A stretch of 64,000 nucleotides of DNA from Prosthecobacter gellanilyticus (GTDB lineage Bacteria; Verrucomicrobiota; Verrucomicrobiia; Verrucomicrobiales; Verrucomicrobiaceae), in the NCBI RefSeq assembly GCF_007992435.1, contig NZ_BKAG01000010.1, positions 62,001 through 126,000 of the forward strand, read 5' to 3'. A model generated the notes under the pieces. It ran no database searches, was not told where the DNA came from, and worked only from the letters and a program-made list of their open reading frames with translations. This document shows positions 885-26,237 of this stretch, one piece after another (positions within the stretch are counted from its first letter, which is position 1; each line of letters opens with the position of its first letter). The translations under genes were made by a program, and so were the position numbers.

Positions 885-2465
885 ATGTCGCAGACCACGC
901 TCGTTAACCGCATCCGCAGCGTCTTCGAAGAGAATCGAGACCGGGTGTTCTTGATCGAATCGATGACAGGTCGCTCGTGGACCTTCGCCAAGATTCATGA
1001 GTGGGGCCTGCGTGGTGCAGCCCTGCTGAAGAGCCACGGCATCAGCAAGGGCGACCGCGTCGCGCTGGTGCTCGCGAACTCAGCCGAGTTTGCTGCCCTG
1101 TATTTTAGCTGCCTCTTCATCGGTGCTGTGGCGGTGCCGGTGAACCAGGCGCTGCACACGGATGACGTCAGTTACATCCTTCAGCACAGCGGAGCCAAGC
1201 TGCTGCTCTTCTCCCGCTGCACGCGATCCCTCATTTTGCAGGCGACTGAGAAGCTGAACACCTTGAAGCAACTACGTGTCGCTCTCGGTCAGGAGACCAG
1301 CTTTCATCCTGAGGATGTCGATGAAGCCTGGACCTTCGACCAAGCCACGACAAATCCTTCGATCGTTCCCTTCGCAGGTGCCAGCGATGACGATACGCTG
1401 CTCATCCTCTTCACCTCCGGCACCACCGGACGTCCGAAGGGCGTGGTGCATCTCGTGCGTTCAGAGTTCGGCAATGCCGTGGCCTTCAATGAGGCCATGC
1501 AGTTCGGTCCCGAACATCGCTTCCTGCACATCTGGCCCATGGCCTACAGCAGCGGCTACTTGAACACGCTCATGTCTCCCTTCATGGCAGGTTCCAGCGT
1601 CGTGCTTGCCCCGGCTTTTACCGCGCAGACGATCCTGAACTTCTGGAAGCCCGTGAAGGACCATTCGGCGAACACGCTCTGGCTTTCCCCCACCATGATG
1701 GCTTCCCTTCTGCGCATGGACCGCGATCAAGACGGACATAAATACTGCCGCGAAAACGTGCGCACGGTCTGTGTCGGCACCGCGCCGCTGGCCTTGAAGC
1801 TGAAGAAGGATTTCGAAGCCCGCTACGGCGTCGAATGCATGGAGAGCTATGGCTTGTCCGAGTTACTGATCCTCTGCGCCAACACACCGTCTCATCCACG
1901 AAAGGAAAACTCAGTGGGCAGGCTGCTCAGCGGCGTTGAGCTTGTGGCCGCTGATGAGCAAGGCATCCATCAAACAGCGGCAAACACCGAAGGCGAGCTG
2001 CTGGCGCGCACTGAATGCCGCATGCATGGCTATCTGAACGCTGAGACGCTCCAGGTGGAGGAACTCAGTGGCGAAACATGGTTCCCGACCGGTGACATCG
2101 GAGTCATTGATGCTGAAGGCAATGTCTTCATCACCGGACGCAAGAAGGACCTCATCATTCGCGGCGGCCAGAACCTGAGTCCTCGCGGCATCCGTGAGGT
2201 GCTGCTGCATCATCCGTCCGTTGAGGATGCCGTGGTCGTGGGCATTCCTCATGACTTCTACGGCGAGGAAGTGGCCGCCGCTCTCCGCCTTAAACCCGGG
2301 CTGCTGCTCGCTGACGAGCAGTCAGACATCCTCACCCACTGCCGCAAGCTCCTGGCCCAGGCTGCCGTGCCGACGAAGCTGAAGCAGGTGACTGAATTTC
2401 CGCTCGGCAGCACTGGTAAAATCCTCAATCGAGAGGTTCAGGCACTGCTCGCGGCCAAGGCATGA
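885..2465 (+). CDS. AMP-dependent acyl/aryl ligase (ANL superfamily)
   Basis: A 526-residue adenylate-forming enzyme that should activate a carboxylic acid with ATP and load it on CoA or, more likely here, on a carrier protein. The phosphate-binding loop TSGTTGRPKG is at residues 177-186, the adenine region is around ESYGLSELL (about 310-320), the GDIG aspartate is near 405, and the hinge GRKKD is near 417. The catalytic lysine of the C-terminal domain is K512 in STGKILNREV, so the enzyme looks complete. Its stop overlaps the start of the next gene (ATGA), and two acyl carrier protein genes lie downstream. The substrate cannot be read from the sequence. Confidence 0.9.
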   Translation: MSQTTLVNRIRSVFEENRDRVFLIESMTGRSWTFAKIHEWGLRGAALLKSHGISKGDRVALVLANSAEFAALYFSCLFIGAVAVPVNQALHTDDVSYILQHSGAKLLLFSRCTRSLILQATEKLNTLKQLRVALGQETSFHPEDVDEAWTFDQATTNPSIVPFAGASDDDTLLILFTSGTTGRPKGVVHLVRSEFGNAVAFNEAMQFGPEHRFLHIWPMAYSSGYLNTLMSPFMAGSSVVLAPAFTAQTILNFWKPVKDHSANTLWLSPTMMASLLRMDRDQDGHKYCRENVRTVCVGTAPLALKLKKDFEARYGVECMESYGLSELLILCANTPSHPRKENSVGRLLSGVELVAADEQGIHQTAANTEGELLARTECRMHGYLNAETLQVEELSGETWFPTGDIGVIDAEGNVFITGRKKDLIIRGGQNLSPRGIREVLLHHPSVEDAVVVGIPHDFYGEEVAAALRLKPGLLLADEQSDILTHCRKLLAQAAVPTKLKQVTEFPLGSTGKILNREVQALLAAKA

Positions 2466-3232
2466 TTCTCGGCGTCAGTCACATCGTTCTCGGCAGCACG
2501 GATTCAGGCCGTGACCGCGCCTTGTTTGAGTCCATGGGCTGGGGCTTGCGCTTCGAGCAGCATGACGTTCCCACCTTTCCAGGAAAGCAGCCCTTTCTTT
2601 GCACCTCGTCGCCGGACCTTTCCCTGGTCTTCCTGAATGCACCTGCTGGCACACCACTGGAACTCATCCACTACACTCAGCCCGCTCCAGCAGACCTCTC
2701 GGCACCTCTGCAGATCATCCTGCCCACGGGAGACTGGCTCTCACACGCGGTCGAGGTTCGCCCAGCCCCCTTGCCGGGTGTGCAGGAAATCGTTGTCCCC
2801 GGCCTCACCAGCCCGCTGTGGATCTCGGATGAACCTTCCCAGCCAAGCCTCATCGTGCATCGCATTACAGATTTGGGGGCTGCCACCCGCTTCTGGGAGG
2901 CTGGATTTGGCTTCCGCCGCTCCAAGCAGCCGCCCCCTTTGCCGGAGGCAGTCCTGCTGGAGTTTCCCAGCCTCATGCCCCAGTGGCGGGCCAGATTGCT
3001 CCTGCTGCCCGTGCGGGAGACGTCCCCCGCCCTGCTCGACGGACCCGGCTTCCGGGTGCTTTCCATGGTCGTCACGCAGTTTGAAAAGGATCGTGACCGG
3101 ATTTTTGCGAACGGCGGGGCTCTGGCTTCCACCGGCACGATGGAGGAAGAGATCGGCAGCAAACCGATGCTGCTGGACCTGATTCAGGGGCCGGACGGTG
3201 TGATGGTGGAAGTCTTCCAGATCCTCCAATAA
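2462..3232 (+). CDS. Tandem-VOC (glyoxalase/dioxygenase fold) protein
   Basis: A 256-residue protein made of two vicinal-oxygen-chelate halves, roughly residues 1-120 and 128-256. The first begins with GVSHIVLGSTD, the second with IVHRITDLGAATRFWEAGFGF; both are typical opening strands and helices of VOC modules, and the protein ends with a metal-ligand-like glutamate in VMVEVFQ. VOC proteins are metal-dependent lyases, isomerases or dioxygenases. The ATGA overlap with the acyl ligase argues for translational coupling and a role in the same pathway, possibly epimerising or rearranging an acyl intermediate. The reaction is unknown. Confidence 0.7.
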   Translation: MILGVSHIVLGSTDSGRDRALFESMGWGLRFEQHDVPTFPGKQPFLCTSSPDLSLVFLNAPAGTPLELIHYTQPAPADLSAPLQIILPTGDWLSHAVEVRPAPLPGVQEIVVPGLTSPLWISDEPSQPSLIVHRITDLGAATRFWEAGFGFRRSKQPPPLPEAVLLEFPSLMPQWRARLLLLPVRETSPALLDGPGFRVLSMVVTQFEKDRDRIFANGGALASTGTMEEEIGSKPMLLDLIQGPDGVMVEVFQILQ

Positions 3233-3388: not shown

Positions 3389-3628
3389 ATGCGTTCCGAT
3401 CTCCTCACCCGCGTCACTCCCGTCTTTCGCAACAACTTCAATGCTCCTGATCTCGTCCTGAACGAGACGATGACGGCCAAGGATGTCGAGGGTTGGGATT
3501 CGTTCGCCCACATCAATCTCATCATGGCGCTGGAAGATACCTTCAACGTTCGTTTTGAGACCTCCGAACTGGGCCAGATCGGCTGCGTCGGTGACCTCCT
3601 CACCCTTCTTGAGTCAAAGGGCGTCTGA
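3389..3628 (+). CDS. Acyl carrier protein (first of two)
   Basis: A 79-residue acidic helical protein with the phosphopantetheine attachment motif GWDSFAHINLI, the modified serine being Ser38. The length and a helix-4 pattern ending in LLTLLESKGV fit a stand-alone carrier protein. It sits 156 bases after the VOC gene, the largest gap in this operon, and before the methyltransferase. It probably carries the acyl group activated by the ligase at 885-2465 or made by the FkbH-like enzyme at 5103-6956. It is distinct in sequence from the second carrier protein at 8640-8891, so the two may receive different partners. Confidence 0.85.
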   Translation: MRSDLLTRVTPVFRNNFNAPDLVLNETMTAKDVEGWDSFAHINLIMALEDTFNVRFETSELGQIGCVGDLLTLLESKGV

Positions 3629-3715
3629 TCCTGCCCTTCGCCTCCCGTCTCCCGCAGAAACGCCCACGTTCCAGACCTGTTCCCCAACCAACTGTTCACC
3701 ACCGATTCATTGACG

Positions 3716-4657
3716 ATGTCCGCCACCCTCGACCCCATCTCCTCAGGCCGTCAGGCCGTCACCGGCCTCATTGAAGAAGTGGCAAAGACAAACCCCGTCC
3801 ATGCCAAGAAGCTGGAGCGCTTTTTGATGGCGCTCGGAGACGACTATTTCGAGTTTGCCGGACCCTTCATTCACCGGATCGAGACCTATCTCACAGCTCG
3901 TGGCCACACGCTGGAGTTCGCCGTGAAGTGCTACCTCAACATGATTGCTGACGTGACCATGGAGCACGTCCGCTTCCTGCGTTCAGGCCGCTACACCAGC
4001 ACTTCCTTCGCCGAAGTGAACGAACGCGTGTACGGAAACCCCAAGGTCATGAGCTACTACATGCACGGGCTGCTGCTCAGCCAGGTGCTGTGGGCGCATC
4101 ACTACAAGATGCTGCGCTTCTTCCACTCAGGCCTGGAAAAACGTGCCGCAGGCATCAAGCACTACATGGAAGTGGGTGGTGGTCACGGCATGTTCCTGGC
4201 GGATGCGCTTGGCATGGTCAAAGGAGGCGAGACGTTCACCATGGTGGACATCAGCCCGGCCTCGCTTGAGATGGCTCAGGAATTCGTCCCCCACGATCCC
4301 CGCACAGCCTTCAAGCTCGCCGATGTCTTTGCCTATGAGCATGGTGAGAAGATGGACTTCATCACGATGGGAGAGGTCATGGAGCATGTGGAGGACCCCG
4401 TGGCTCTGCTCGCACGGCTGAGAACCTTCCTGAAGGATGACGGTCGCGTTTTCATCACCACGCCCACGAACGCGCCGGCGATCGATCACATCTTCCTTTT
4501 CACCAGCGCGGAACACATCCGTCAGGTGATCCACGCTGCAGGCTATGACATCGAGGAGGAACTCGGCATCTGGTCCGAGGAGATGCCTCCTGAGCAGCTC
4601 GAGAAGAACAAGGTCACCCTGCTATACGGTGCCTTTCTCAAGCCACGTTTGTCATGA
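3716..4657 (+). CDS. SAM-dependent methyltransferase with a helical N-terminal domain
   Basis: A 313-residue class I methyltransferase. The SAM-binding motif is EVGGGHGMF from residue 152; motif II ends in MVDIS and a post-motif MGEVMEHVEDP follows, as in Methyltransf_11/23-like enzymes. The first 140 residues form a separate helical domain whose function I do not recognise. I chose the ATG at 3716; a TTG two codons upstream is possible. The stop overlaps the next gene by ATGA. In this setting a likely job is O-methylation of a carrier-bound or sugar-bound acyl group, but the target is not shown by the sequence. Confidence 0.8.
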   Translation: MSATLDPISSGRQAVTGLIEEVAKTNPVHAKKLERFLMALGDDYFEFAGPFIHRIETYLTARGHTLEFAVKCYLNMIADVTMEHVRFLRSGRYTSTSFAEVNERVYGNPKVMSYYMHGLLLSQVLWAHHYKMLRFFHSGLEKRAAGIKHYMEVGGGHGMFLADALGMVKGGETFTMVDISPASLEMAQEFVPHDPRTAFKLADVFAYEHGEKMDFITMGEVMEHVEDPVALLARLRTFLKDDGRVFITTPTNAPAIDHIFLFTSAEHIRQVIHAAGYDIEEELGIWSEEMPPEQLEKNKVTLLYGAFLKPRLS

Positions 4658-5064
4658 TCCAAGGAGCACGTTTTCATCACACAGGCTGCCTCGTCGCTGA
4701 TATCGAAAAGGCACGCTCCACTTATGGAGCCCTGTTTGGGATGGATGCGGTTTCGACCGTGACAGAAGTGGCGTCACAGTGCGTCCGCGTATGCTTTGTC
4801 ACCACCGGAGACGGTGGTGCCATCGAGTTGATCCAGCCAAATCCAGGCAGCTCGCTGACCCAGATGCTGGAGAAAGGTGCCAGCTTCTACCATGTGGCCT
4901 ATGAGGTTCCAGATCTGGCCGCGGCAGTCGCTGCCATGGAGACGGCAGGCTGCCGCATGATGCCGGCCTTTGCCTCGGAGGCCTTTCAGGGACGGCGCTG
5001 TCAATTCGCGTTCACCCGCGAAAGACATCTCATCGAGCTCATCGAGGCCGCACAGCCTCAATGA
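4654..5064 (+). CDS. VOC-family protein, methylmalonyl-CoA epimerase-like
   Basis: A 136-residue single VOC protein. It starts with FHHTGCLVADIEKA, includes AIELIQP and YHVAYEVPDL, and ends with HLIELIEA, so the histidines and glutamates expected of a VOC metal site are present. The layout resembles methylmalonyl-CoA epimerase and related glyoxalase-like proteins. It overlaps the methyltransferase stop by ATGA and is followed 38 bases later by the FkbH-like gene. It is a plausible epimerase for a 2-hydroxyacyl or similar thioester in this pathway; genuine methylmalonyl-CoA epimerase activity seems less likely in this context. Confidence 0.7.
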   Translation: MIQGARFHHTGCLVADIEKARSTYGALFGMDAVSTVTEVASQCVRVCFVTTGDGGAIELIQPNPGSSLTQMLEKGASFYHVAYEVPDLAAAVAAMETAGCRMMPAFASEAFQGRRCQFAFTRERHLIELIEAAQPQ

Positions 5065-5102
5065 CATCACCCCGCCCTGGTGTTTGACACTCTGCGGACC
5101 CT

Positions 5103-6956
5103 ATGACCTTTGCCGAAGCCCATACACGACTGCAAACGCATCTCCGCGCGGGGCACCTACCCCAGGCGGCAGGTGCTTTGCGGGACGCCCTTCAGGAACC
5201 TTTCAAATTCACCGAGCTGCAGCAGTTGAACCGGACGAACGCGGCTTCTGAAGCTGCCTGGCGCGGCCATCTGTCAGCTCGCAGCCTGCGTATCGCCATC
5301 CTGGGCGGATTCACCACACAGCCAGTGCGGGAAGTGATCAGGGCCGTGGTGCTGGCAGAAGGGTGGTGGCCGGAAATCTACGAGGCCCCTTACAACACCT
5401 TTGAAACCGAGCCCTTGGACGAAAGCTCGGGGGTCCATGCCTTCGCGCCAGACATCGTCATCCTCGCCACCGGCAGCGTGAATCTGCATGAACTCCCGCC
5501 TCCTGGTGCCGACGAGGCCTTGGTAGCCCAGATGGCTGAGCAGGTGGTGGCTGGCTGCGCCCAGCGCTGGCAGGCCCTGTGCCGCCGGGATGGAGTGCGG
5601 ATCATCCAGCATAATTTTGAAACGCCTGCTGACCTTCCTCTCGGACGTCTCGAAGGCCGCCTGCCCTGGTCTGCCACGCGTTTCACCCGCGAGGTCAATG
5701 ACCGGCTTTGGACCCACGATGGAGGCGCGGTGCGCATCCTCGACATGCACCAACTCACGTCTGACTGCGGCCGGCGTCACTGGCATGAACCGCGCTGGTT
5801 CCACCACGCCAAGCACGGGTTTGACCCCGCCCTAGTTCATCACTATTCCCGGGCTCTGGGAGGCCTCCTGCGATCCATGCTGGGGCGCACGCGCAAATGT
5901 CTCGTCACCGATCTCGACAACACACTCTGGGGCGGCGTCATTGGTGATGACGGGGTCGATGGGATAGCCTTTGGCAGCATCTCGGCCGCCGGAGAAGCTT
6001 ATGCGGCCTATGCTCATTATCTGAAGCGCCTCAGCACCCTCGGGGTGGCTCTTGCCGTGTGCAGCAAAAATGATCCCGCCGTGGCATCCGCCGTGTTTGA
6101 GACCCATTCCGAGATGCCACTGAAGAAGGACGAATTCGCCGCCTTTGTCTGCAATTGGGAACCCAAGTCCGACAATCTCCGAAGCATCGCCAAGCATCTG
6201 AATCTCGGCCTCGACAGCTTAGTGTTCGTCGATGACAACCCCGCAGAATGTGATGAAGTCCGCAGGGCTCTGCCTGAAGTCACAGTCATCGAAATGTCCG
6301 GGGATTCCGCCTACTTCCCGCGCAGGATTGAGGAGTTACAGCTCTTCACGCCGCTGGACATCACGCAGGAGGACTTCAGCCGCACGGCTAGTTACGCTGC
6401 GCTCAGGCAGATCAGCACGCTCACCCAGACTCCCGGCGCGGGACTGGAAGCGCATCTGGCCAGCCTGGAAATGGAAGGCTCGATCCACCAGGCGACCACG
6501 GGCGACTTGCCCCGGATCGAACAGCTCTTCAGAAAAACCAACCAGTTTAACCTCACCGGCGCCACCTACACACAAGATGCCCTGGCGGCGATGGCCGCCG
6601 CCCCTGACTGCCGCGTCTATGCCGTTCGGCTCAAAGACCGGTTCGCGGCGCATGGTATCGTTTCCGTTCTCGTGGCGCGGCTTGTGCAAGAAGAGTGGCA
6701 GGTGGATAACTGGGTCATGAGTTGCCGTGTTTTCAACCGCAGGCTGGAGGATGCCATCTTAAACCATGCGCTGGCAGATGCCCTCGCGTCTGGATGCTCC
6801 AAAGTCGCGGGTCTCTTCCGGCCCACGGCCAAGAATGACTATGCGAGAACCTTTCTGGCCAGGCTGGACCTGCTGCCCTCAGACAGTTCTGCTGAAGTCA
6901 CTTATTCCGTTCCCGCCAGCAGGCCTGCCCTGCCCCATTCCATCCATCTCATATGA
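5103..6956 (+). CDS. FkbH-like HAD-IIIC enzyme (candidate glyceroyl-ACP synthase)
   Basis: A 617-residue three-part protein. Residues about 45-260 resemble the SGNH-like N-terminal region of FkbH proteins. The HAD domain starts with KCLVTDLDNTLWGG near residue 267 and contains VFVDDNP near residue 379, the signatures of the HAD-IIIC subfamily. The C-terminal 170 residues resemble a GNAT acyltransferase, including LFRKTNQFNLTG and a VDNWVMSCRV segment. Characterised FkbH relatives take the glyceryl group of 1,3-bisphosphoglycerate and place it on a carrier protein. Two carrier proteins and two methyltransferases nearby make a glycerate or O-methylglycerate product plausible. The stop overlaps the next start (ATGA). 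Confidence 0.85.
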   Translation: MTFAEAHTRLQTHLRAGHLPQAAGALRDALQEPFKFTELQQLNRTNAASEAAWRGHLSARSLRIAILGGFTTQPVREVIRAVVLAEGWWPEIYEAPYNTFETEPLDESSGVHAFAPDIVILATGSVNLHELPPPGADEALVAQMAEQVVAGCAQRWQALCRRDGVRIIQHNFETPADLPLGRLEGRLPWSATRFTREVNDRLWTHDGGAVRILDMHQLTSDCGRRHWHEPRWFHHAKHGFDPALVHHYSRALGGLLRSMLGRTRKCLVTDLDNTLWGGVIGDDGVDGIAFGSISAAGEAYAAYAHYLKRLSTLGVALAVCSKNDPAVASAVFETHSEMPLKKDEFAAFVCNWEPKSDNLRSIAKHLNLGLDSLVFVDDNPAECDEVRRALPEVTVIEMSGDSAYFPRRIEELQLFTPLDITQEDFSRTASYAALRQISTLTQTPGAGLEAHLASLEMEGSIHQATTGDLPRIEQLFRKTNQFNLTGATYTQDALAAMAAAPDCRVYAVRLKDRFAAHGIVSVLVARLVQEEWQVDNWVMSCRVFNRRLEDAILNHALADALASGCSKVAGLFRPTAKNDYARTFLARLDLLPSDSSAEVTYSVPASRPALPHSIHLI

Positions 6957-7960
6957 TCGAGTATCACGATATCGAAGCCATCGCCGCCGAAGACTCGGAG
7001 GTCAATCCAGCCGCTGTCCGCGCCATCACCACAGAGGACGAGAAGGACGGCCCCGAGAAGCTGGTGGTCCTGGCGGAGTTCGGCGGTCCCCGGGTGACCT
7101 GCAGCGAGCGGCTGCGTGACCGTTTGACTGAGCAGGTGCGCCAGCGTTCCGGCTGGAAGGGTGACATCATCGTGGAGATCGTGCGCAGCGGCTGGCTTTC
7201 CGCAGGCAGTGAAGGCACGGCTGATTCTGCCGAGTGCGCAGCACGACTGGAGCGCCTGAACAAGATGCGCCAGGAAACCACGCAGATTTTCAACAGCACG
7301 TTCGAGAACAATATCACCGAAGCGGAGAAGGATGCCTTTGGCTACTTCGGCTCGTATGCCAAGATCCGCACGCCAGCCTCTGTCACCAACCCGCGGCTCA
7401 TCCATCTCGGAAACTGGGTCAGCTTCGGACGCATGGGCAAGATCCTGATGCAGACGGATTTCTCAGTCCTGCCGCCACTGATTCGTCAGCACTATCCGGA
7501 TGCAGTCTTCGATATTCCCGAAGAGCTTTGCGGCACGCGCAATCCGCGTTTCAAGATTGGTGATGGCTCCACCATCGGTGACAACTTCTTCATCAGCGTG
7601 AATCTTGAGCTCGTGCTCGGCCGTCATGTGGCCATCGCAGACCGCTGCTATATTTCCGACGCCAATCATCTGCATAAAAACCCGGACATCCCGCCCAGCC
7701 TCTGCCCCAACGAGCTGGGCAAGCCCATCCATATTGATGATCATTGTTGGTTCGGCGTGAACACGGTGCTCATCAATGGCGCGCGCATCGGCAGGCACTG
7801 CATCGTTTCAGCCAATTCCGTCGTCAGCGGTGACATGCCAGACTTCAGCCTGGCCGTGGGCAATCCGGCGCGCATCGTACCGTTCAACTCCTTCGGATTC
7901 GACCAAAAATCCAAGGCTGGCATCGTTCCCGACCAGCAGCCCGGGGCACCTCAACCTTGA
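6953..7960 (+). CDS. Left-handed beta-helix acyltransferase fused to a relic acyl-AMP-ligase C-domain
   Basis: A 335-residue protein. Residues about 200-315 contain hexapeptide repeats (IGDGSTIGDNFFIS, IDDHCWFGVNTVLING, ARIGRHCIVSANSVV), typical of O- or N-acyltransferases of the WbbJ/maltose acetyltransferase type. The first 100 residues look like the C-terminal subdomain of fatty-acyl-AMP ligases: HDIEAIAAED, then EKLVVLAEF, then the region normally ending in SSGK. Here that region reads GSEGTADSAECAARL, so the catalytic lysine is gone. I infer a structural or docking role for this part, perhaps carrier-protein binding. ATGA overlap with the FkbH-like gene supports joint action. Confidence 0.75.
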   Translation: MIEYHDIEAIAAEDSEVNPAAVRAITTEDEKDGPEKLVVLAEFGGPRVTCSERLRDRLTEQVRQRSGWKGDIIVEIVRSGWLSAGSEGTADSAECAARLERLNKMRQETTQIFNSTFENNITEAEKDAFGYFGSYAKIRTPASVTNPRLIHLGNWVSFGRMGKILMQTDFSVLPPLIRQHYPDAVFDIPEELCGTRNPRFKIGDGSTIGDNFFISVNLELVLGRHVAIADRCYISDANHLHKNPDIPPSLCPNELGKPIHIDDHCWFGVNTVLINGARIGRHCIVSANSVVSGDMPDFSLAVGNPARIVPFNSFGFDQKSKAGIVPDQQPGAPQP

Positions 7961-7964
7961 TCTT

Positions 7965-8627
7965 ATGCGCATCATCGATCTCAGCTACCCTATCCACGAA
8001 GGCATGACGACCTTCCCTGTCCACTGGCATCCTGTCGTGGAGATCACGCAGCTCGGCCGCTTCGGCATTGAGAACCGCGAGACTCGGAAGATCACCATGG
8101 GCACCCATTGCGGCACCCACATTGATGCGCCCCGCCACTTCATTCCCAATGGCCCGACCATCGACAAAATCCCGCTTGAATGGCTGGTCGGCCCGGCACG
8201 CGTGCTGAACTTCACCCCGATCACTCTGCCCAAGCAGGAATTCGGTGTGGAAGACTTCAAGCAGCGTCTGGGCGATGACAAACCCGAGCGCCTGATCCTT
8301 CGTTTCGACTGGTCCGATCACTGGGGCACGATGAAGTACTACACGGACCAGCCCTACATCACCGAAGAGGCCGGTCATTGGCTGGTAGAGCGCGGTGTGC
8401 GCGTGCTGGCCATGGACACTCCTCAGGTGGACAGCCCGGACAACGGCCGCACCGGCCCCAAGGACTCGCCCCTGCATAAAATCATGCTCGGCGCAGGTGT
8501 CGTCTTTGTTGAATACTGCACGAACCTCCGCCAGTTGTCGCGTGACGAGGTCGAGCTTGTCGTGGCGCCGCTGAACATTCTCGGCTCCGATGGCTCCCCC
8601 GCCCGTGTCATCGCCATTGAACGCTGA
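7965..8627 (+). CDS. Cyclase / kynurenine-formamidase-like metal hydrolase
   Basis: A 220-residue protein starting at the ATG 5 bases after the previous stop. It begins RIIDLSYPIHEGM and has the metal-binding signature HCGTHIDAPRHF (near residue 46), the hallmark of the cyclase/arylformamidase family (PF04199). The end region VVAPLNILGSDGSPARVIAIER matches the family's C-terminal strand. Members hydrolyse amides or lactones, or cyclise polyketides. Tryptophan catabolism genes are absent here, so a role on an acyl or amide intermediate of the surrounding acyl-carrier pathway is more likely than kynurenine formation. Confidence 0.85.
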   Translation: MRIIDLSYPIHEGMTTFPVHWHPVVEITQLGRFGIENRETRKITMGTHCGTHIDAPRHFIPNGPTIDKIPLEWLVGPARVLNFTPITLPKQEFGVEDFKQRLGDDKPERLILRFDWSDHWGTMKYYTDQPYITEEAGHWLVERGVRVLAMDTPQVDSPDNGRTGPKDSPLHKIMLGAGVVFVEYCTNLRQLSRDEVELVVAPLNILGSDGSPARVIAIER

Positions 8628-8639
8628 TTTTTCCCACTC

Positions 8640-8891
8640 ATGAACGTTACTCAAACCGTCCTCGAATTCTTCGACTCCCGCGGCGGCCTTCCTGGCTCCA
8701 CGGAGCAGGAAAAGCTCGCCTGTGCCTACCTTGATGCCAAGGTCATCGACAGCATGGGCATCATCGACATGATCTCGCATTTTGAGGACACTTTCGGCAT
8801 CCGTTTTGAAGCGGATGACATGCAGTCTGAAGAGTTCCAGACCGTGGGAGGTTTGGTGCAGGTGATCGAAAAACTCCGCGCCGCCGCATGA
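8640..8891 (+). CDS. Acyl carrier protein (second of two)
   Basis: An 83-residue carrier protein with the phosphopantetheine site VIDSMGIIDMI, the serine being Ser38. The acidic helices EDTFGIRFEADDM and a C-terminal VGGLVQVIEKL fit the four-helix fold. It starts 12 bases after the hydrolase gene and overlaps the following methyltransferase gene by ATGA, which suggests that the methyltransferase works on a substrate tethered to this protein. It is only distantly similar to the carrier at 3389-3628. Confidence 0.88.
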   Translation: MNVTQTVLEFFDSRGGLPGSTEQEKLACAYLDAKVIDSMGIIDMISHFEDTFGIRFEADDMQSEEFQTVGGLVQVIEKLRAAA

Positions 8892-10051
8892 GCCAGATCT
8901 GTCCGGACCTCATCTCCTTCCCTGAATCTCCGGCCACGCATCCGGACCGCTGGGTGCTCATGAACGTGCATACACGTCAGTGCATCGGCGCAGGCCCGGA
9001 GGTGCTGGCAGTGCTGGCCGATCCGGACAAGACCACCTCCGAGACTTATCGGGTCTGGAAGATCTGGAGGTTTTCAAACATTGACGGCCTCCTGGCTGAC
9101 CCCTCTCGTTTCAAACGCGACGCCGCCACGTGGGGCGAACCCGAAAACTTGGACCACGGCACCCTGGTGAAGATGCTGAAGGACCAGTGCCTTCTGATTG
9201 ATGACCTTGAGTCTTACCGCGCTCGTTTCGACTTTAAGAAATCATTGTTAGACCGCCAGCGCTTCGGCACCTATCACCAGCAGCTCGGGCAGCAGTTGAT
9301 CGCCTTTGAGCGTCGTGACCCAACCGCCTGGTGGCTGCAGCAAAAGTTCACACCGGACCTCTCCGCCATCCGTCAGGACAACCTGTATGGAGCCGTGCAG
9401 GACCGCTTTCTGGATGAATGGCTGCCCAAGCGCATGAAGCCAGGACTGCGCGTGCTGGACCTCGGCTGCGGCGCCGGCACCATCGCGCAAAAAATGGCGC
9501 GCCTCGGAGCCAGTGTGCTCGGCGTGGATCCTAACGAAGAATACATCCGCCTCGCCACCGAACGCGCGGAGGGTGATGCCACCTTCCAGGTGCTGGACCT
9601 GAACCAGCCACGCGCCCTCGATGCCCTGCCAGCCGCCTCGTTTGACTGCATCTACATGAGTGATGCGCTGCTGTTCTACTTCGTCCCTTACGAACCCGGC
9701 AAGCCACTCGATCTCGCAGGCTTCATCGCTGACGTGAAGCGCCTGCTGAAACCAGGTGGCACCTTCCTGTCCCTGGAACCGCATCCTGTGTTTTACGTCC
9801 AGCCTTGGCTGGGTGATCCCGCACGGCCCTTCACGGTGACGACCGAGTATCTGCACACCCACTGGCGCATCAATCCGCCGCTCAGCGTGCTGGCGCGTCC
9901 GTTCCTGGATTCCGGGTTCGTTATCACCGGTGTGGAAGAACCAGCCTCCAGCCGTAGTGATCCGCACGTGCCTCAGCGTGATGCGGTGTTCGCCAGCGAG
10001 TTCCCCGTTTGGCTCCTGCTTGAGATGAAGCTCGCCGACGCCGCCTCATGA
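8888..10051 (+). CDS. SAM-dependent methyltransferase, second in the operon
   Basis: A 387-residue protein whose class I methyltransferase domain begins at about residue 185. Motif I is VLDLGCGAG (189-197), motif II ends in GVDPNEEY, and a motif near 260 reads FDCIYMSDALLFYF. The first 180 residues are an extra domain with ordered charged helices and no recognised signature; it may position a carrier protein. It is coupled by ATGA to the carrier gene upstream and to the acyltransferase fusion downstream. Together with the methyltransferase at 3716-4657 it would allow two methylations of one substrate; the acceptor atoms are not deducible. Confidence 0.82.
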   Translation: MSQICPDLISFPESPATHPDRWVLMNVHTRQCIGAGPEVLAVLADPDKTTSETYRVWKIWRFSNIDGLLADPSRFKRDAATWGEPENLDHGTLVKMLKDQCLLIDDLESYRARFDFKKSLLDRQRFGTYHQQLGQQLIAFERRDPTAWWLQQKFTPDLSAIRQDNLYGAVQDRFLDEWLPKRMKPGLRVLDLGCGAGTIAQKMARLGASVLGVDPNEEYIRLATERAEGDATFQVLDLNQPRALDALPAASFDCIYMSDALLFYFVPYEPGKPLDLAGFIADVKRLLKPGGTFLSLEPHPVFYVQPWLGDPARPFTVTTEYLHTHWRINPPLSVLARPFLDSGFVITGVEEPASSRSDPHVPQRDAVFASEFPVWLLLEMKLADAAS

Positions 10052-12174
10052 CGAGCCCCGCTCCGTATCACTACACCCAGGCTGACCTGGTGCAGGGTCT
10101 TCGCGCCGCTGGCGTGGTGGAGGGAGACACCGTCTTTGTGCATGCCAGCCTCGGCAGGCTGGGCTACCCGGACCGCGGCCGCTCCATGCCAGATGCCTGT
10201 GCAGCAGCTCTGGATGCCCTGCGTGAAGCCGTGGGGGCAAGAGGCACGATCCTGGTGCCGACCTACACCTATTCCATCGGCAAAGGAGAAGTCTTCGACC
10301 CGGCCTTGACATGCTCAACGTTAGGCGACTTCACCGAGCACGTGCGCATGCAACTAGATGCACTGCGTTCCCATGACCCGATGCTGGCCGTCAGCGGCAT
10401 CGGCCCGAAGGCAGCTGAACTGCTTTCAGACCTGCCCCGCACCTGCTATGGCCCGGGCAGTATCTATGACCGGCTCGTGGACAGCGGTGGAAAGATTGTC
10501 ATGATCGGTCTTGGCCTTTTTTGGGCGACCTTTCGTCACTACATTGAGGAAAAGGCTGGTGTGCCATTCCGCTTTCGCAAGCTCTTCACGGGAGTCGTTC
10601 GTGTGGATGGCGTCGAGGCACGTCAGACATGGACTTACTCCTGCGCGCCACGTCAGGACAACTGCGCGCCCAATGGTGTCCCGCTGGAAAAACTGGCACG
10701 CGAACGTGGGCTATGTCTCTCCGCCAGGGTGGGTCGCGGCGAAGTCTGCGCCATCGACTGCGCAGAGTACACTCGTCTAGGCCTGGAGGCTTTTGCCGCT
10801 GATCCTTGGCTTTGCGCCAAGGGGCCTGCGTTGCATGAAGCAAAGCTGGTGGCACTGGAAGATGCGCGAACACAAGTTCCAGCAGCCTCCGTCACTCTGC
10901 CGCCCGGTGCGAGCATGGTTCAAATGCTTAAAGCCTTGTCTCCACTGCGCCGTGACATCGTCACCCAGGAGTATGACATCGCTCTAAATGCGCTGGCGGA
11001 GCAACTGCCGATGACGATCCACAAGTTTGTCAGTGGTGTCGAATGCTCCACCTGGCTGGTTCCTGAGCGCTGGACCTGCCGGGAGGCTTCGCTGCAGACT
11101 TTGGACGGGCAGGTGATTTTCTCAGACAAGGATCATCCTCTGCATGTCGTGTCCTATTCCCAGTCGTTTGAGGGTGTGGTCAGCCGTGAGGAACTGCTGA
11201 AACATCTTCATGTGCATCCGCACCTGGAGGATGCCGTGCCCTTCATGTTCAAGTACTACCAGCGTGACTGGGGGCTCTGCTGCAGCCAGCGTCAGAGGGC
11301 ATCCCTGACTGAGCCTGAGTACAAAGTGGCCATCAAGACCGACACCAACTTCAGTCATCTGAAAGTCGGTGAGGTGGTAGTCCAGGGCATGTCAGAAGCC
11401 AGCTTTGTGCTCTGCGCCCACCTTTGTCATCCAGCACAGACGGCGGATGATCTCAGCGGTGTCGTTGTTGGCATGGAAGTGATGCGCCGCCTGCAGCAGC
11501 GAAAGAATCTTCGTTACACCTACCGTCTCCTCATCCTTCCCGAAACAATTGGTTCGGCAGCCTGGCTTTCACGCCATCGCCATCTCGTTCCTGAGATCCA
11601 TGGCGGCCTCTTCCTGGAGATGCTGAGCCTGGCCCACCCCATGGCCCTTCAGATGCCTTTTGACGAGGCGTCTGCTGCAGCCCGCTGCTTGAAGGCCACC
11701 TTTGAGAAGCATGCCCCAGACGGCTGGACAGCACCATTCCGAGGCATCATCGGCAATGATGAAAGACAGTTCAACGGTCCCGGTGTGCGCGTCCCCATGC
11801 TGTCCCTTTCCAGGGTGCTTCCGCGCAATCATCCTGACTGGCCTTACCGCGAGTATCACTCCAGCCACGACAATTTCGCGCATGCCTCGCTTCCCCATCT
11901 AGAAGCCAGCGTGGACATGGTCATGAAGATGATCGAAGCCTGGGAGGCCAACGGCATCCCCCTGCCCCGGTTCAAGGGAGAAGTCTTCTGCACAAGGTAC
12001 GGCATCCACATCGATCCGACCACCCAGCCGGATCTTCACCGCCACTTCTTCAGCATCATGGACCAGATTGACGGAAGGCAGGATGTGCCCGCGATCGCTG
12101 AACGCTGCCAGGCTTCTGTCGAAGCCGTCGAAAAGAGCCTGGCTCTTCTGCGTCATCACGGTCTGGTCTGCTGA
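10048..12174 (+). CDS. Fusion of an AAC(3)-family N-acyltransferase and a DUF4910 aminopeptidase-like protein
   Basis: A 708-residue two-enzyme protein. Residues 1-270 are an AAC(3)-type acyltransferase, with VHASLGRLGY, PTYTYSIGKG and the histidine-containing RSHDPMLAVSGIG. Residues about 290-640 are a DUF4910 (M28-like) domain: AHLCHPAQTADDLSG and ILPETIGS hold candidate zinc ligands and the catalytic glutamate, and NDERQFN and YHSSHDN follow. The last 60 residues look like a winged helix. AAC(3) relatives in glycan loci N-acylate amino sugars, and DUF4910 proteins occur in flagellin glycan loci such as that of Campylobacter. The natural fusion implies that both act on the same product. It is the last gene of this operon. 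Confidence 0.85.
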   Translation: MTSPAPYHYTQADLVQGLRAAGVVEGDTVFVHASLGRLGYPDRGRSMPDACAAALDALREAVGARGTILVPTYTYSIGKGEVFDPALTCSTLGDFTEHVRMQLDALRSHDPMLAVSGIGPKAAELLSDLPRTCYGPGSIYDRLVDSGGKIVMIGLGLFWATFRHYIEEKAGVPFRFRKLFTGVVRVDGVEARQTWTYSCAPRQDNCAPNGVPLEKLARERGLCLSARVGRGEVCAIDCAEYTRLGLEAFAADPWLCAKGPALHEAKLVALEDARTQVPAASVTLPPGASMVQMLKALSPLRRDIVTQEYDIALNALAEQLPMTIHKFVSGVECSTWLVPERWTCREASLQTLDGQVIFSDKDHPLHVVSYSQSFEGVVSREELLKHLHVHPHLEDAVPFMFKYYQRDWGLCCSQRQRASLTEPEYKVAIKTDTNFSHLKVGEVVVQGMSEASFVLCAHLCHPAQTADDLSGVVVGMEVMRRLQQRKNLRYTYRLLILPETIGSAAWLSRHRHLVPEIHGGLFLEMLSLAHPMALQMPFDEASAAARCLKATFEKHAPDGWTAPFRGIIGNDERQFNGPGVRVPMLSLSRVLPRNHPDWPYREYHSSHDNFAHASLPHLEASVDMVMKMIEAWEANGIPLPRFKGEVFCTRYGIHIDPTTQPDLHRHFFSIMDQIDGRQDVPAIAERCQASVEAVEKSLALLRHHGLVC

Positions 12175-17653: not shown

Positions 17654-18694
17654 ATGTCTCTCAGCCAGCCTCCCCTTCAGTCCGACCGCCCCTGCTTCAT
17701 CATCGCGGAAGCCGGAGTAAATCATAACGGTGACCTTGAGCTCGCCAGACAACTCGTCCGCACCGCTGCAGAGAGCGGCGCAGATGCGGTGAAGTTTCAG
17801 ACCTTCCAGGCAAAGCATCTCGTGACATCGGATGCGCCTCAGGCCGCATATCAGGCCGAGAACTCGGGCATCACGGAGAGCCAGTTTGACATGCTCAAGC
17901 GTCTCGAGCTCCCGCTGGAGGCCTTTGCCGAACTAAGCCGTTACTGCCAGGAGTTGGGCATCATGTTCATGTCCACGGCCTTTGATGAAGAGAGCGCGGA
18001 CTTCCTCGCCGCGCTGGGCATGTCCATCTTCAAAATCCCCTCGGGTGAGTTGACGAACCTGCCGCTGCTGCGTCACATCGCCCGCCATGGCAAGCCGATG
18101 ATTGTGTCCACCGGCATGGGCACGCTGGACGAGGTCTTTGAAGCGGTGGATGCCATCCGCTCCGCAGGCAATGACCAGATCACCGTGCTGCACTGCGTCA
18201 CCAATTATCCTGCGCCGCCAGAGACGGTGAACCTGCGTGCCATGGACGTCATGCGCACCGCGCTGGGCGTGCCGATCGGCTATTCCGATCATACCATGGG
18301 CATCGAGGCCTCCGTCATCGCCGTGGCGGCAGGAGCCCAGGTGATCGAGAAGCATTTTACGTTAGACTGCAACATGCCCGGCCCTGATCACAAGGCCTCC
18401 CTGGAGCCTGCGGACCTGACGGAAATGGTGCGCAGCATCCGCCGTGTCGAGGTGCTGCTCGGAACCGGTCAGAAGCAGCCAAGCCAGACGGAGCTGGATG
18501 TGGCCAAGATCGTCCGCCGCAGCGTGGTGGCCCAGGCCAGCATTCCCGCAGGCACACTGATCACGGAGGACATGCTCGTTCTACGTCGTCCAGGCACCGG
18601 CATTCCGCCCGCTCGTTTCCATGAGGTGCCCGGAAAACGCGCGCTCGTGGACATCTCCGAAGGTTCCATGATCCGCTGGGAGGACGTGGCATGA
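17654..18694 (+). CDS. neuB: Nonulosonic acid synthase (PEP-condensing), NeuB/LegI type
   Basis: A 346-residue enzyme condensing phosphoenolpyruvate with a 6-carbon N-acyl amino sugar to give a 9-carbon acid. The TIM-barrel begins FIIAEAGVNHNGD and contains AVKFQTF, KIPSGELTN and IGYSDHT; the last 60 residues are the antifreeze-like SAF domain (VVAQASIPAGTLIT). It lies 12 bases after neuA and overlaps neuC by ATGA. LegI, NeuB and PseI cannot be separated with certainty by eye; the legB and legC genes in the window favour the legionaminate branch. Confidence 0.93.
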   Translation: MSLSQPPLQSDRPCFIIAEAGVNHNGDLELARQLVRTAAESGADAVKFQTFQAKHLVTSDAPQAAYQAENSGITESQFDMLKRLELPLEAFAELSRYCQELGIMFMSTAFDEESADFLAALGMSIFKIPSGELTNLPLLRHIARHGKPMIVSTGMGTLDEVFEAVDAIRSAGNDQITVLHCVTNYPAPPETVNLRAMDVMRTALGVPIGYSDHTMGIEASVIAVAAGAQVIEKHFTLDCNMPGPDHKASLEPADLTEMVRSIRRVEVLLGTGQKQPSQTELDVAKIVRRSVVAQASIPAGTLITEDMLVLRRPGTGIPPARFHEVPGKRALVDISEGSMIRWEDVA

Positions 18695-19854
18695 GATCCG
18701 TCGGCGTTGTCAGCGTCGGCCGGTCAGATTACAGCATCTATCGGCCTTTGCTCCAGCGCATCGCCGCGCATCCAGATCTGGAACTGCGCCTGCTTGTGTC
18801 CGGCATGCATCTGGAAGAGCGCTACGGCAGCACGGTGAACCTCATCGAGAAAGATGGCTTCCCTGTCACGGCACGCATTCCAGTGCTGCAAAAAGAAGAC
18901 ACGGCTGAGGCAGTGGCCATCGCCATGGGCGCGGGTGTCTCTGGATTCGCCCAGCACTTTGCCAGACAACGACCGGATCTTCTGGTGGTGCTGGGAGATC
19001 GGTTTGAAATGTTCGCCGCAGCACTGGCTGCGGTTCCCTTCAACATCCCCATCCTGCATCTTCACGGTGGCGAGCTCACCGAGGGCGCCATGGATGACCG
19101 CTTCCGCCATGGCCTAACCAAAATGAGTCATCTGCATGGTGTGGCCACTGAAGTGTATCGCCAGCGGGTCATCCAGCTCGGAGAAGAGCCCTGGCGTGTA
19201 GAGTGCTGCGGAGCGCTCTCGTTGGACAACATGCTGTCTGTCCCGCGCTTGAGCCGCGCCGAGATGGAAACCCGGTTCAAGCTGGATCTCTCCACACCTC
19301 CCCTGCTCGTCACACTGCATCCCACGACAAGCGAGTATGAGCAGACCGCCCCGCAGACGGACGCGCTGATGAGCGCGCTGCAGACCTTGGGTCTGCCGGT
19401 GATCTTCACCATGCCCAATGCGGACATGGCGGGCAGCGTGATCCGCGAACGAATCCTCGCTTTCTGCACCACTCATCCCAATGCGCGCTGGGTGGAAAAT
19501 TTCGGACCTGAAGGGTATTTCTCCATCTTGGGTGAAGTCAGCGCCATGGTGGGCAATTCCTCCAGCGGTTTGCTCGAGGCCCCAAGCTACGCGTTGCCCG
19601 TGGTGAACATTGGCAACCGCCAGAAGGGTCGCTTGAGAGCGGGTAACGTGATTGATGTGCCTCAGTTTGAAGCGGCGGATATCGTGCGTGCGGTGAAGCA
19701 GGCTTTGACTCCTGAATTCAAAGCTCGCGCCGCAGGTTTCGAGCACTTCTTTGGTGACGGTCACGCTTCCGAGCGACTGCTGAACCTCATCGTGAACACA
19801 CCGCTGGATGAGCGGCTGCTGAACAAAACCTTCCACGACCTTCCTCCATCATGA
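18691..19854 (+). CDS. neuC: Hydrolysing UDP/GDP-sugar 2-epimerase, NeuC/LegG type
   Basis: A 387-residue GT-B-fold enzyme that releases the nucleotide and inverts C2 of the sugar, supplying the free hexosamine for NeuB. Signatures include VSVGRSDYSIYRPLL at the start, LVVLGDRFEMFAAA, HLHGGELTEGAMDD and the nucleotide-binding GNSSSGLLEAP and NIGNRQKGR. It is translationally coupled to neuB upstream (ATGA) and neuD downstream (ATGA). With LegB and LegC present, the substrate may be the 2,4-diacetamido-trideoxy sugar nucleotide handled by LegG rather than UDP-GlcNAc. Confidence 0.92.
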   Translation: MRSVGVVSVGRSDYSIYRPLLQRIAAHPDLELRLLVSGMHLEERYGSTVNLIEKDGFPVTARIPVLQKEDTAEAVAIAMGAGVSGFAQHFARQRPDLLVVLGDRFEMFAAALAAVPFNIPILHLHGGELTEGAMDDRFRHGLTKMSHLHGVATEVYRQRVIQLGEEPWRVECCGALSLDNMLSVPRLSRAEMETRFKLDLSTPPLLVTLHPTTSEYEQTAPQTDALMSALQTLGLPVIFTMPNADMAGSVIRERILAFCTTHPNARWVENFGPEGYFSILGEVSAMVGNSSSGLLEAPSYALPVVNIGNRQKGRLRAGNVIDVPQFEAADIVRAVKQALTPEFKARAAGFEHFFGDGHASERLLNLIVNTPLDERLLNKTFHDLPPS

Positions 19855-24185: not shown

Positions 24186-25232
24186 ATGACTTCCAAGCCC
24201 GTCTCCCTGCTCTGTCTGCCGCCCACCGGCACGATACGAGATGCCCTGGAGGTGATCGAAAAAGGCGCGGAGGGCATCTGCCTCCTCGTGGATGCCGAGC
24301 AGCGCCTGCTGAGTACGGTGACGGATGGAGACATCCGCCGCGCTTTGCTCAAAGGGGCATCCATGGCGGATTGCGTGGAGCCTTTCGGCAAGCGCCGCTT
24401 CACCAGCGTGTCCGCGAATGCCTCACGCGCCGAGGTCATCGACCTCATGCAGGCGCGGCATCTTCATCAGATCCCCATCCTTGATGACCAAGGCCGCCTC
24501 AAAGGTCTGCACTTGGTCCGCGAGATCCTTGGCTCCCAACCGAGGCCCAACTGGGCGGTCATCATGGCCGGAGGCAAAGGCACACGCCTGGGCGAGCTCA
24601 CCAAAGCCACGCCGAAGCCGATGCTCAAAGTGGCGGGCCGACCGATTCTGGAGCGTCTGGTCTTGCACCTCGTCGGCTGTGGCATCCGGCGCATTTTTAT
24701 TTCCACGAACTACCTCGCCAGCGTGATCGAAGATCATTTTGGTGATGGCACCAACTTTGGTTGCCGCATCGAGTATCTGCGCGAGACCACAGACCAGCCG
24801 CTGGGCACTGGCGGCTCTCTTTCGCTGCTGCCAGAGAGGCCCGAGCATCCCATCTTTGTCTGCAATGGTGATCTCGTGACCCAGGTGGACGTGTCCAGCC
24901 TCTTCGAGTTTCATCAGGACGGCGGTTATCTGGCCACCATCGGTGTGCGCAGCTATGCGCATGAGATTCCCTTTGGCTGCCTGGAGGTCAACGAGGGCTG
25001 CGTGACCAGTATCGTGGAGAAACCCACGGTGTCCCAGCTCATCAACGCCGGCATCTACATCCTCTCCCCGGAGATCATCGACCGCGTGCCGCGCCAGTTC
25101 TTCCCCATCACCGAGCTCTTCGACGAAGCAGTCCGCAAGAGTGATCGCATCGGCGCTTTCGAGATCGTGGACGAATGGATCGATGTGGGACAGCGCGAGC
25201 AGCTCAAGCAAGCGCGCGGAGGCGCTCAATAA
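24186..25232 (+). CDS. ptmE: CBS-domain sugar-1-phosphate nucleotidyltransferase (PtmE-like)
   Basis: A 348-residue protein: two CBS motifs in residues 1-120 (LLSTVTDGDIRRALLKG and HQIPILDDQGRLKGL), then a nucleotidyltransferase domain beginning AVIMAGGKGTRLGELT near residue 124, with the KPMLKVAGRP lysine, NGDLV and INAGIYIL. This architecture is that of Campylobacter PtmE, a glucosamine-1-phosphate guanylyltransferase that starts the GDP-based legionaminic acid route. LegB and LegC directly follow (18-base gap, then overlap). The choice of GTP over UTP or TTP is inferred from the neighbours. Confidence 0.87.
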   Translation: MTSKPVSLLCLPPTGTIRDALEVIEKGAEGICLLVDAEQRLLSTVTDGDIRRALLKGASMADCVEPFGKRRFTSVSANASRAEVIDLMQARHLHQIPILDDQGRLKGLHLVREILGSQPRPNWAVIMAGGKGTRLGELTKATPKPMLKVAGRPILERLVLHLVGCGIRRIFISTNYLASVIEDHFGDGTNFGCRIEYLRETTDQPLGTGGSLSLLPERPEHPIFVCNGDLVTQVDVSSLFEFHQDGGYLATIGVRSYAHEIPFGCLEVNEGCVTSIVEKPTVSQLINAGIYILSPEIIDRVPRQFFPITELFDEAVRKSDRIGAFEIVDEWIDVGQREQLKQARGGAQ

Positions 25233-25250
25233 CCTAACGAATTTTTATTT

Positions 25251-26237
25251 ATGGGATCATTCAAAGGCAAAAAAGTCTTCATCACAGGAGCTGGCGGTTT
25301 CATCGGCAGCCATCTGGCCGAGCATCTGATGCGCGAAGGCGCGCAGGTGCGGTCCATGGTGCACTACAATGCGCTCGGCAAGCGCGGCTGGCTGGACTAC
25401 AGCGACCTCGCCAGCGAGATGGAAATCCTTCCTGGCGACATCACGGATCGTGACAGCGTGCGCGCTGGAGTGAAAGGCCGTGACTATGTCTTCCACCTCG
25501 GCGCCCTCATCGCCATCCCCTACTCCTATCAGGCTCCGCGCAGCTATGTGCGGGCCAACATCGAAGGCACCCTGAACGTGCTGCAGTCCGCCATGGATGA
25601 AGGCGTGCAGCGTGTGCTGCATACCTCCACGAGCGAGGTCTACGGCACGGCACTCTTTGTGCCGATCACAGAAGAACACCCTCTTCAGGGCCAGTCCCCC
25701 TACTCCGCCTCCAAGATCGGAGCGGACAAGATGGCGGAAGCTTTCGCGGCCTCCTTTGAGCTTGAAGTGGTGACAGTGCGTCCCTTCAACACCTTCGGCC
25801 CTCGCCAAAGCATGCGCGCAGTCATTCCGACGATCATCAGCCAGTGCCTGCGTGGCAATGATGTGAAGCTCGGAGCCGTGAGCCCGACGCGCGACCTGAA
25901 CTATGTGCAAAACACGGTTGAAGGTTTCTGCGCTGCCGCACTGGCTCCCAACGCTAAGGGCCAGACCATCAATTTTGGTTCGGGCCGTGAGATCAGCGTC
26001 GGTGATCTGGCGATCGCGATTGGCAAGATCTTTGGCAAGGACGTGAACATCATCTGCGAGCAGGAACGTCTGCGCCCAAGCAAGAGCGAGGTCGAGCGCC
26101 TGCTGGCCTGCAACAAGAAGGCCAAGGCCCTGACCGACTGGGAGCCGCGTGTGACCCTGGAGCAGGGCCTGGAAAAAACCGTGGCCTGGATCCAGCAGAA
26201 CGCCGAACATTACAAAGCCCAAGGCTATGTCGTCTGA
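25251..26237 (+). CDS. legB: Sugar-nucleotide 4,6-dehydratase LegB (extended SDR)
   Basis: A 328-residue extended short-chain dehydrogenase. The NAD site ITGAGGFIGSH is at residues 11-21, the catalytic Ser/Thr lies in STSEVYG near 125, and YSASK is at 151-155. The sugar-binding part includes RPFNTFGPRQSMRAVIPTII and RDLNYVQNTVEGF, typical of LegB-type dehydratases, which convert GDP- (or UDP-) GlcNAc into the 4-keto-6-deoxy sugar. It overlaps the aminotransferase by 11 bases. Confidence 0.9.
   Translation: MGSFKGKKVFITGAGGFIGSHLAEHLMREGAQVRSMVHYNALGKRGWLDYSDLASEMEILPGDITDRDSVRAGVKGRDYVFHLGALIAIPYSYQAPRSYVRANIEGTLNVLQSAMDEGVQRVLHTSTSEVYGTALFVPITEEHPLQGQSPYSASKIGADKMAEAFAASFELEVVTVRPFNTFGPRQSMRAVIPTIISQCLRGNDVKLGAVSPTRDLNYVQNTVEGFCAAALAPNAKGQTINFGSGREISVGDLAIAIGKIFGKDVNIICEQERLRPSKSEVERLLACNKKAKALTDWEPRVTLEQGLEKTVAWIQQNAEHYKAQGYVV

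Follow-up and report, generated by a model that had tools for sequence, protein, structure and literature searches.

Why would a bacterium keep the C-terminal domain (C-domain) of a fatty-acyl-AMP ligase (FAAL) at the front of an acyltransferase once its catalytic loops are gone? The question is raised by an open reading frame (ORF) at positions 6953 to 7960 of a 64,000-nucleotide stretch of Prosthecobacter gellanilyticus DNA (contig NZ_BKAG01000010.1, positions 62,001 to 126,000), which is called the window here. The C-domain is the moving half of adenylating enzymes of the ANL type. A first-pass annotation made from the letters alone had read the first 100 or so residues of the ORF as such a domain, fused to a beta-helix acyltransferase, and had pointed to the motifs HDIEAIAAED, EKLVVLAEF and GSEGTADSAEC; the ORF, its frame and these motifs are all as described there. 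The analysis reported below indicates that the protein most likely belongs to an operon for glycan decoration and joins a hexapeptide acyltransferase to a FAAL C-domain reduced to its globular core. This front part is termed the N-domain (Table 1).

Identity of the N-domain

The N-domain fell below the cut-off of every curated model (PF13193, AMP-binding_C, E 0.14; MbtM, E 0.03), and for the full proteins only hexapeptide-type families scored above it. As the curated libraries left the N-domain unnamed, it was tested with a FAAL profile, by profile-profile comparison and by fold prediction. The weak AMP-binding_C match was confined to the window N-domain and was found in none of the three orthologues, two of which matched the Pfam family of RNA 3'-phosphate cyclase weakly (PF01137, E 0.048 at best). 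In the set of N-domains from L005, L006 and L007, the PF01137 match falls around VE.VRAGWLP and is taken as chance.

The FAAL profile was built from 17 C-domains, with the four fusion proteins left out; five of the 17 are encoded in genomes of this phylum and 12 in plasmid records. Of the 145 genomes of the phylum searched with the MbtM model, 11 matched at E<=1e-25; five of these (L068-L072) were put into the profile and six were left out, one scoring as a FAAL (L073) and five as the CoA-ligase type (L074-L078). The plasmid members were taken from 42 records with a FAAL-like C-domain. The profile was searched against 2421 ORFs, the four N-domains and 2000 shuffled N-domains. The window N-domain obtained 36.5 bits (E 1.1e-9), the top score outside the FAALs, and the whole reading frame 33.2 bits (E 1.3e-8); the shuffled copies reached 7.5 bits at most. 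When the four N-domains were aligned with the FAAL profile by hhalign, a match over 98 columns was obtained (98.0%, P 2.4e-13, score 73.0), compared with a best score of 19.7 among 100 column shuffles. A CoA-ligase-type profile of six C-domains, a small and biased set with five members from this operon or its relatives, left all four N-domains unmatched at E<=10. The ligase encoded in the window was also considered as the source of the N-domain and rejected, with BLAST similarity at the level of noise and no match to the CoA-ligase-type profile. Searching the PDB with the single N-domain sequence returned nothing, and with the four-row N-domain profile the matches were 3lax (E 0.83), a PaaK C-domain, and AcvB (E 1.3), which are not usable alone.

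AlphaFold2 (AF2) prediction of the N-domain alone from the four-row alignment (pLDDT 75.2, pTM 0.66) yielded a model with the three-stranded sheet and helices of the C-domain fold. Foldseek returned 1313 PDB matches at E<=10, 13 of them at E<=0.001. By name, 49 of the best 50 among these 1313 are ANL enzymes and one is listed as 'a mycobacterial protein' (5d6j); the top row was 6ulw (E 1e-4). VIA-align superposed the model on FadD32 with Z 11.6 (100 residues at 2.3 A) and on EcFAAL with Z 10.9, and the acyl-CoA-ligase rows at 10.7 lie within 1 and are hence tied. Structure prediction against FAAL C-domains had been set beforehand as the test that could overturn the first-pass reading; an ANL C-domain fold was predicted and the reading survives. 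The FAAL profile, hhalign and the predicted fold thus agree on the likeness to an acyl-AMP ligase C-domain. Based on profile, profile-profile comparison and predicted fold, the N-domain is an ANL C-domain, and among these it is most likely of the FAAL type. It shares with the FAAL C-domain (FadD32, EcFAAL) the fold, the sequence profile, the HDIE start and the position of the A10 loop; at the HDIE site, the FAALs collected for comparison read for example PQDIE or AHDIE.

Loss of both catalytic loops

The segment in place of SSGK reads GSEGTADSAEC, from which the first-pass annotation concluded that the catalytic lysine was lost. The alignment confirms this for all four proteins, none of which keeps a lysine in the A10 column (Table 1). 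By the predicted model, the A8 hairpin is also gone, a loss that the first-pass annotation had not noticed. Residue 1 of the N-domain model pairs with residue 495 of 5ey8_E, the M. smegmatis FadD32, and the alignment runs on from there. The C-domain of MsFadD32 comprises residues 484-630, with Gly492 in A8 and Lys601 in A10 (PMC4667280; this and the other PMC-numbered papers are cited from excerpts), and 5ey8_E is assumed to be numbered in the same way. As the model starts after the position of the A8 glycine, the A8 hairpin and the hinge are taken to be absent. The open frame upstream of the start codon extends for 19 codons without an A8 motif, and the orthologues begin six to nine residues earlier, likewise without an A8 hairpin motif. 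With the A10 lysine and the A8 hairpin both lost, the N-domain lacks the two catalytic loops that serve the ANL cycle.

In FAALs the C-domain follows an adenylation core, whereas the N-domain precedes an acyltransferase and is more acidic. The fusion ORF contains no N-terminal adenylation core, and an FkbH-like gene lies directly upstream. The features of a functional FAAL or ANL enzyme, namely the A10 lysine, the A8 hairpin with its hinge and the adenylation core, are therefore all missing from the fusion protein.

A precedent for a silent C-domain may be the 'pseudo Asub' of a keto-acid-selecting nonribosomal peptide synthetase (NRPS) module, PDB 6ulw, a likeness drawn from the fold match and the entry title. 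The pseudo Asub shares its NRPS module with an A domain, whereas the N-domain stands alone on a beta-helix acyltransferase in a protein without an adenylation core. A Sinorhizobium fredii plasmid gene (L086, 6945-9230) encodes a carrier-like start, a FAAL-type part and a PlsC-type acyltransferase in one chain. Unlike the fusion protein, it retains TSSGK together with some or all of the adenylation core, and its acyltransferase is of another type. This gene is annotated only as 1-acyl-glycerol-3-phosphate acyltransferase (PlsC is taken from the product name), and its adenylation core looks shortened. In the literature on adenylating enzymes and hexapeptide, beta-helix or fused acyltransferases, the fusion is undescribed in the titles and abstract beginnings among the matches listed, which include few subscription papers.

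Conservation, selection and distribution

The first-pass annotation had regarded the N-domain as a relic kept without chemistry. The loss of chemistry holds, but 'relic' is too weak a word for a domain present in four proteins with a ratio of nonsynonymous to synonymous change (pN/pS) of 0.36-0.43. Three relatives (G008, G024 and G044) keep the N-domain, and the frame is open in all four genomes. Among the three close relatives, pN/pS of the N-domain was 0.38, 0.36 and 0.43 (upper 95% limits 0.52, 0.47 and 0.55), compared with 0.13-0.20 for the beta-helix part, 0.18-0.34 for the C-domain of the operon ligase and 0.26-0.39 for the ligase core; these ratios are rough because pS is near saturation. 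The N-domain is under purifying selection, which is looser than in the beta-helix part. A pseudogene was ruled out by the four open frames and by pN/pS below 1. Identity of the window copy to the other three is 25-26% across the N-domain and rises to 40-42% across the beta-helix part. In the alignment of the four N-domains 20 of 138 columns are invariant, and LAEF/FAEF and VE.VR.GWL are invariant or nearly so.

The fusion was detected in four of 96 genomes (the window's own and relatives), all in the window's genus, which makes up 48 of this sample; the other matches listed start at residue 158 or later. The first 198 residues matched one of 387 phylum genomes at E<=0.001, and a profile matched one of 384 class genomes at E<=1e-5, in both cases the window's own copy. 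These two samples overlap, were evenly drawn and may exclude the three orthologue genomes, with at most eight candidates scored per genome. In another phylum, three of 398 genomes matched at E<=1e-16 (at most five candidates scored each), all within the beta-helix part. A genome search with the four-row N-domain profile recovered the window and the two orthologues in the sample; a further 34 rows were weak, with E values from 0.017 upwards. Of the latter, nine were considered as ANL domains and rejected, among them Deg-type proteases, an RNA 3'-phosphate cyclase-like frame (L043) and low-complexity frames. A scan of public genome contigs gave two loci that match residues 255-319 alone, and none of the 310 plasmid records matched by tblastn reached 80% coverage of the query. 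The gene surroundings of the FAAL in L069 were uninformative.

The beta-helix acyltransferase part

The fusion to a beta-helix acyltransferase is well founded, as the remainder of the ORF matches the hexapeptide repeats of PF00132 (E 2.2e-8, 33.9 bits against a cut-off of 27), a family matched by all four members of the fusion family. The WbbJ model NF007240 gave E 1.6e-20, yet stayed under its own cut-off, and a four-row profile of this part found PDB 3ect at E 1.9e-21. The beta-helix domain is common to the fusion protein and to hexapeptide acyltransferases of the WbbJ, WcaF and maltose types. H239 is a candidate for the catalytic residue, a role assigned by analogy. The three best hexapeptide acyltransferases outside the phylum (L105-L107) align from residue 194 on, none of them to the N-domain. 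AF2 modelled the full-length protein at a mean pLDDT of 41.2, with a beta-helix part of inadequate quality, and this model was kept out of the fold search.

The operon and a putative swapped cassette

The start codon of the fusion ORF overlaps the stop codon of the preceding FkbH-like gene (ATGA), and the genes around it form an operon (Table 1) in which seven genes are common to the window and the three relatives. Their identities between the window and G044, G024 and G008, respectively, are 77-91 (two pieces), 80 and 72% for the ligase, 66, 79 and 51% for VOC1, 38, 36 and 36% for the acyltransferase, 95, 95 and 92% for the cyclase, 87, 98 and 80% for carrier 2, 91, 91 and 81% for methyltransferase 2 and 74, 81 and 59% (the last over 436 residues only) for AAC(3)-DUF4910. 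Nothing matching carrier 1, methyltransferase 1, VOC2 or FkbH at E<=1e-5 turned up in the 11-20 kb stretches that were searched in the relatives' genomes. With one sharply different gene, the acyltransferase, beside four extra genes, a swapped cassette is the simplest reading. A five-gene cassette (carrier, methyltransferase, VOC, FkbH and acyltransferase; 3389-7960) appears, from this sequence comparison, to have been swapped in for a single acyltransferase gene. A more distant member of the phylum (G245) has relatives of the ligase, cyclase, methyltransferase, carrier and AAC(3) in a 19.5 kb stretch in which neither the acyltransferase nor the VOC proteins found a match.

The G044 ligase (L080, 781-2178) is missing about 51 residues, equivalent to 326-376 of its window counterpart; the contig is short, so this could be an assembly fault. 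The AAC(3)-DUF2172/DUF4910 chain (10048-12174) also gives a weak M28 match. Near the start of the window, the relatives of an ORF of 269 residues (62-871) in G024 and G008 are the ends of 752-residue ORFs, and the window edge probably cuts this gene.

Table 1. Positions of the fusion protein, its parts and the surrounding operon genes in the window.
Feature	Position	Strand	Remarks
Acyl-CoA-ligase-type ANL enzyme	885..2465	+	Intact STGK, own C-domain
VOC-like protein 1	2462..3232	+	Core operon; our reading, no NCBIfam match at 1e-10
Carrier protein 1	3389..3628	+	DS motif; PF00550 18.1 bits, under cut-off 20.8
S-adenosylmethionine (SAM) methyltransferase-like protein 1	3710..4657	+	UbiG model, under its cut-off
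VOC protein 2	4654..5064	+	Methylmalonyl-CoA epimerase model, under its cut-off
FkbH-like HAD protein	5103..6956	+	TIGR01686 E 8.7e-86
Fusion acyltransferase	6953..7960	+	335 codons; Hexapep match (Pfam)
N-domain, residues 1-105	6953..7267	+	FAAL-type ANL C-domain core without A8 hairpin and A10 lysine
HDIE, residues 5-8	6965..6976	+	Start of FAAL C-domain core
W81 of 'VR-GWL'	7193..7195	+	Invariant in 4/4 proteins; common to FAAL in L069 (AAGWLVKTTSGK)
T89	7217..7219	+	At FAAL A10 catalytic lysine position; Q, R, R in orthologues
Predicted long helix, residues 92-125	7226..7327	+	From N-domain towards beta-helix part; AF2 of N-domain
Left-handed beta-helix (hexapeptide) acyltransferase domain	7352..7888	+	Approx. 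residues 134-312
H239, candidate catalytic His	7667..7669	+	Invariant in 4/4 proteins
Cyclase-family protein (PF04199)	7965..8627	+	92-95% identical in three relatives
Carrier protein 2	8640..8891	+	DS motif; PF00550 23.9 bits; in 4/4 operons
SAM methyltransferase 2	8888..10051	+	Core operon
AAC(3)-like acyltransferase fused to DUF2172/DUF4910	10048..12174	+	Core operon

The acyl group and its acceptor

FkbH proteins probably load glycerate from 1,3-bisphosphoglycerate. Glyceryl-acyl carrier protein (ACP) is made from this compound (PMC3679948), and FkbH domains are described as probable glycerate loaders (PMC10143770). Further along the window, at 17654-19854 and 24186-27399, genes for a nonulosonic (legionaminic-like) acid were found that encode NeuB-, NeuC-, LegB- and LegC-type proteins; the LegB-like protein scores 438.4, just under the cut-off of 475, and a nucleotidyltransferase with a CBS-like front part is also among these genes. 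The DUF2172/DUF4910 part of the AAC(3) fusion is presumably of the Cj1295 type. In C. jejuni, dimethylglyceric acid on pseudaminic acid requires cj1295, and cj1302 is a gene with an fkbH domain (PMC3068675, PMC7099621). The flagellin glycan locus of C. jejuni thus combines an FkbH-domain gene with a di-O-methylglyceryl group on a nonulosonic acid, as the gene set of the window would imply; the excerpts of the two papers describe no acyltransferase fusion in that locus. In P. gellanilyticus, FkbH, the methyltransferase and carrier 1 may make a carrier-bound glyceryl or O-methylglyceryl group, which the fusion enzyme would transfer to a nonulosonic or related sugar. Judging from the gene set, such a (methyl)glyceryl transfer is the most likely reaction.

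Possible roles of the N-domain

The predicted fold, the open frames and purifying selection suggest that the N-domain is kept as a folded and selected part, and it may help to bring the acyl carrier, or a carrier-ligase pair, to the active site of the beta-helix. Such docking is a plausible leading guess by analogy with the FAAL C-domain, with a spacer as the main rival. According to a review, the FAAL C-domain contributes to stabilization and to the docking of the ACP (PMC11837247). The reading as a whole, a glycan acyltransferase with a folded and selected FAAL C-domain core that lacks both loops, transferring a (methyl)glyceryl group that a carrier putatively delivers, is put forward tentatively, at slightly less than an even chance.

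Several observations weigh against this reading. The orthologues score weakly with the FAAL profile (G008 17.2 bits, E 0.0012; G044 16.1 bits, E 0.0025; G024 7.0 bits, E 1.7), not above the 12.6-24.2 bits of CoA-ligase-type ANL frames in the same set, and their scores alone therefore cannot tell FAAL from other ANL domains. By simple charge counts, the four N-domains carry net charges of -7, -5, -5 and -4, compared with -3 to +7 in the 17 FAAL C-domains, and the two carriers are also acidic (-6 and -9), which speaks against a simple electrostatic dock. The functional phosphopantetheine pocket of FAALs has been placed in the N-terminal domain (PMC8460268); as that domain is absent here, the C-domain alone would not hold the arm of the carrier. 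In terms of protein change, the N-domain evolves two to four times faster than the beta-helix part does (pN 0.24-0.30 compared with 0.08-0.12), a rate that would suit a region under weak constraint. The beta-helix part is poorly modelled, so the placement of the domains is not fixed by the model. Finally, the identities of acyl group and acceptor sugar are deduced from the gene set.

The N-domain could instead be a passive spacer, or a stability or oligomer element, that recognises nothing and whose fold is kept since misfolding harms the enzyme. This explanation is possible, though on balance unlikely. Faster change than in the beta-helix part, divergent charge, the loss of both catalytic loops and the small number of invariant columns are in line with it, and the review mentioned above names enzyme stabilization as a role of the FAAL C-domain. 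Nevertheless, the N-domain is kept in both of the diverged acyltransferase versions, which are 36-38% identical, and the two conserved motifs have remained invariant or nearly so.

Docking of another operon protein (ligase, methyltransferase, cyclase or FkbH) in place of a carrier, giving a multienzyme complex, is improbable. The overlap of the acyltransferase start with the FkbH stop, the cassette genes that accompany this version of the acyltransferase and the acidity of an N-domain beside acidic carriers would fit such a complex. However, the three relatives also have the N-domain, yet no FkbH was detected in their operon stretches, and FkbH can therefore hardly be the general partner.

A continuing role of the N-domain in the chemistry of adenylation, for instance as an in-trans complement to an ANL N-core, is very improbable. 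Even though an ANL ligase is encoded in the same operon, this enzyme has its own C-domain with STGK, the N-domain has neither the lysine nor the A8 hairpin, and the MbtM model for FAALs found no match at E<=1e-30 in 37 genomes, the window's own included. Next to no weight is given to a chance resemblance of a small alpha/beta domain from another family, an idea that the sub-threshold curated models, the G024 score and the cyclase matches might encourage, since profile and profile-profile searches, both with shuffle controls, and the fold tests all give an ANL C-domain.

Implications

The first-pass annotation is partly supported: it was right about the origin of the domain and the loss of its chemistry, and the docking role that it proposed is a plausible conjecture. 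The N-domain exemplifies a domain that is missed by the libraries searched. If docking is true, it would provide a small module with which acyl carriers could be steered to acyltransferases in glycan engineering. It is also conceivable, though rather doubtful, that the detached FAAL C-domain is a carrier-recognition module that travels with exchangeable acyl-making cassettes (FkbH, carrier and methyltransferase), so that the acyl groups on surface sugars would be swappable between related bacteria. A silent C-domain that is selected on an unrelated acyltransferase offers a natural test of the non-chemical role of this domain, above all of carrier recognition.

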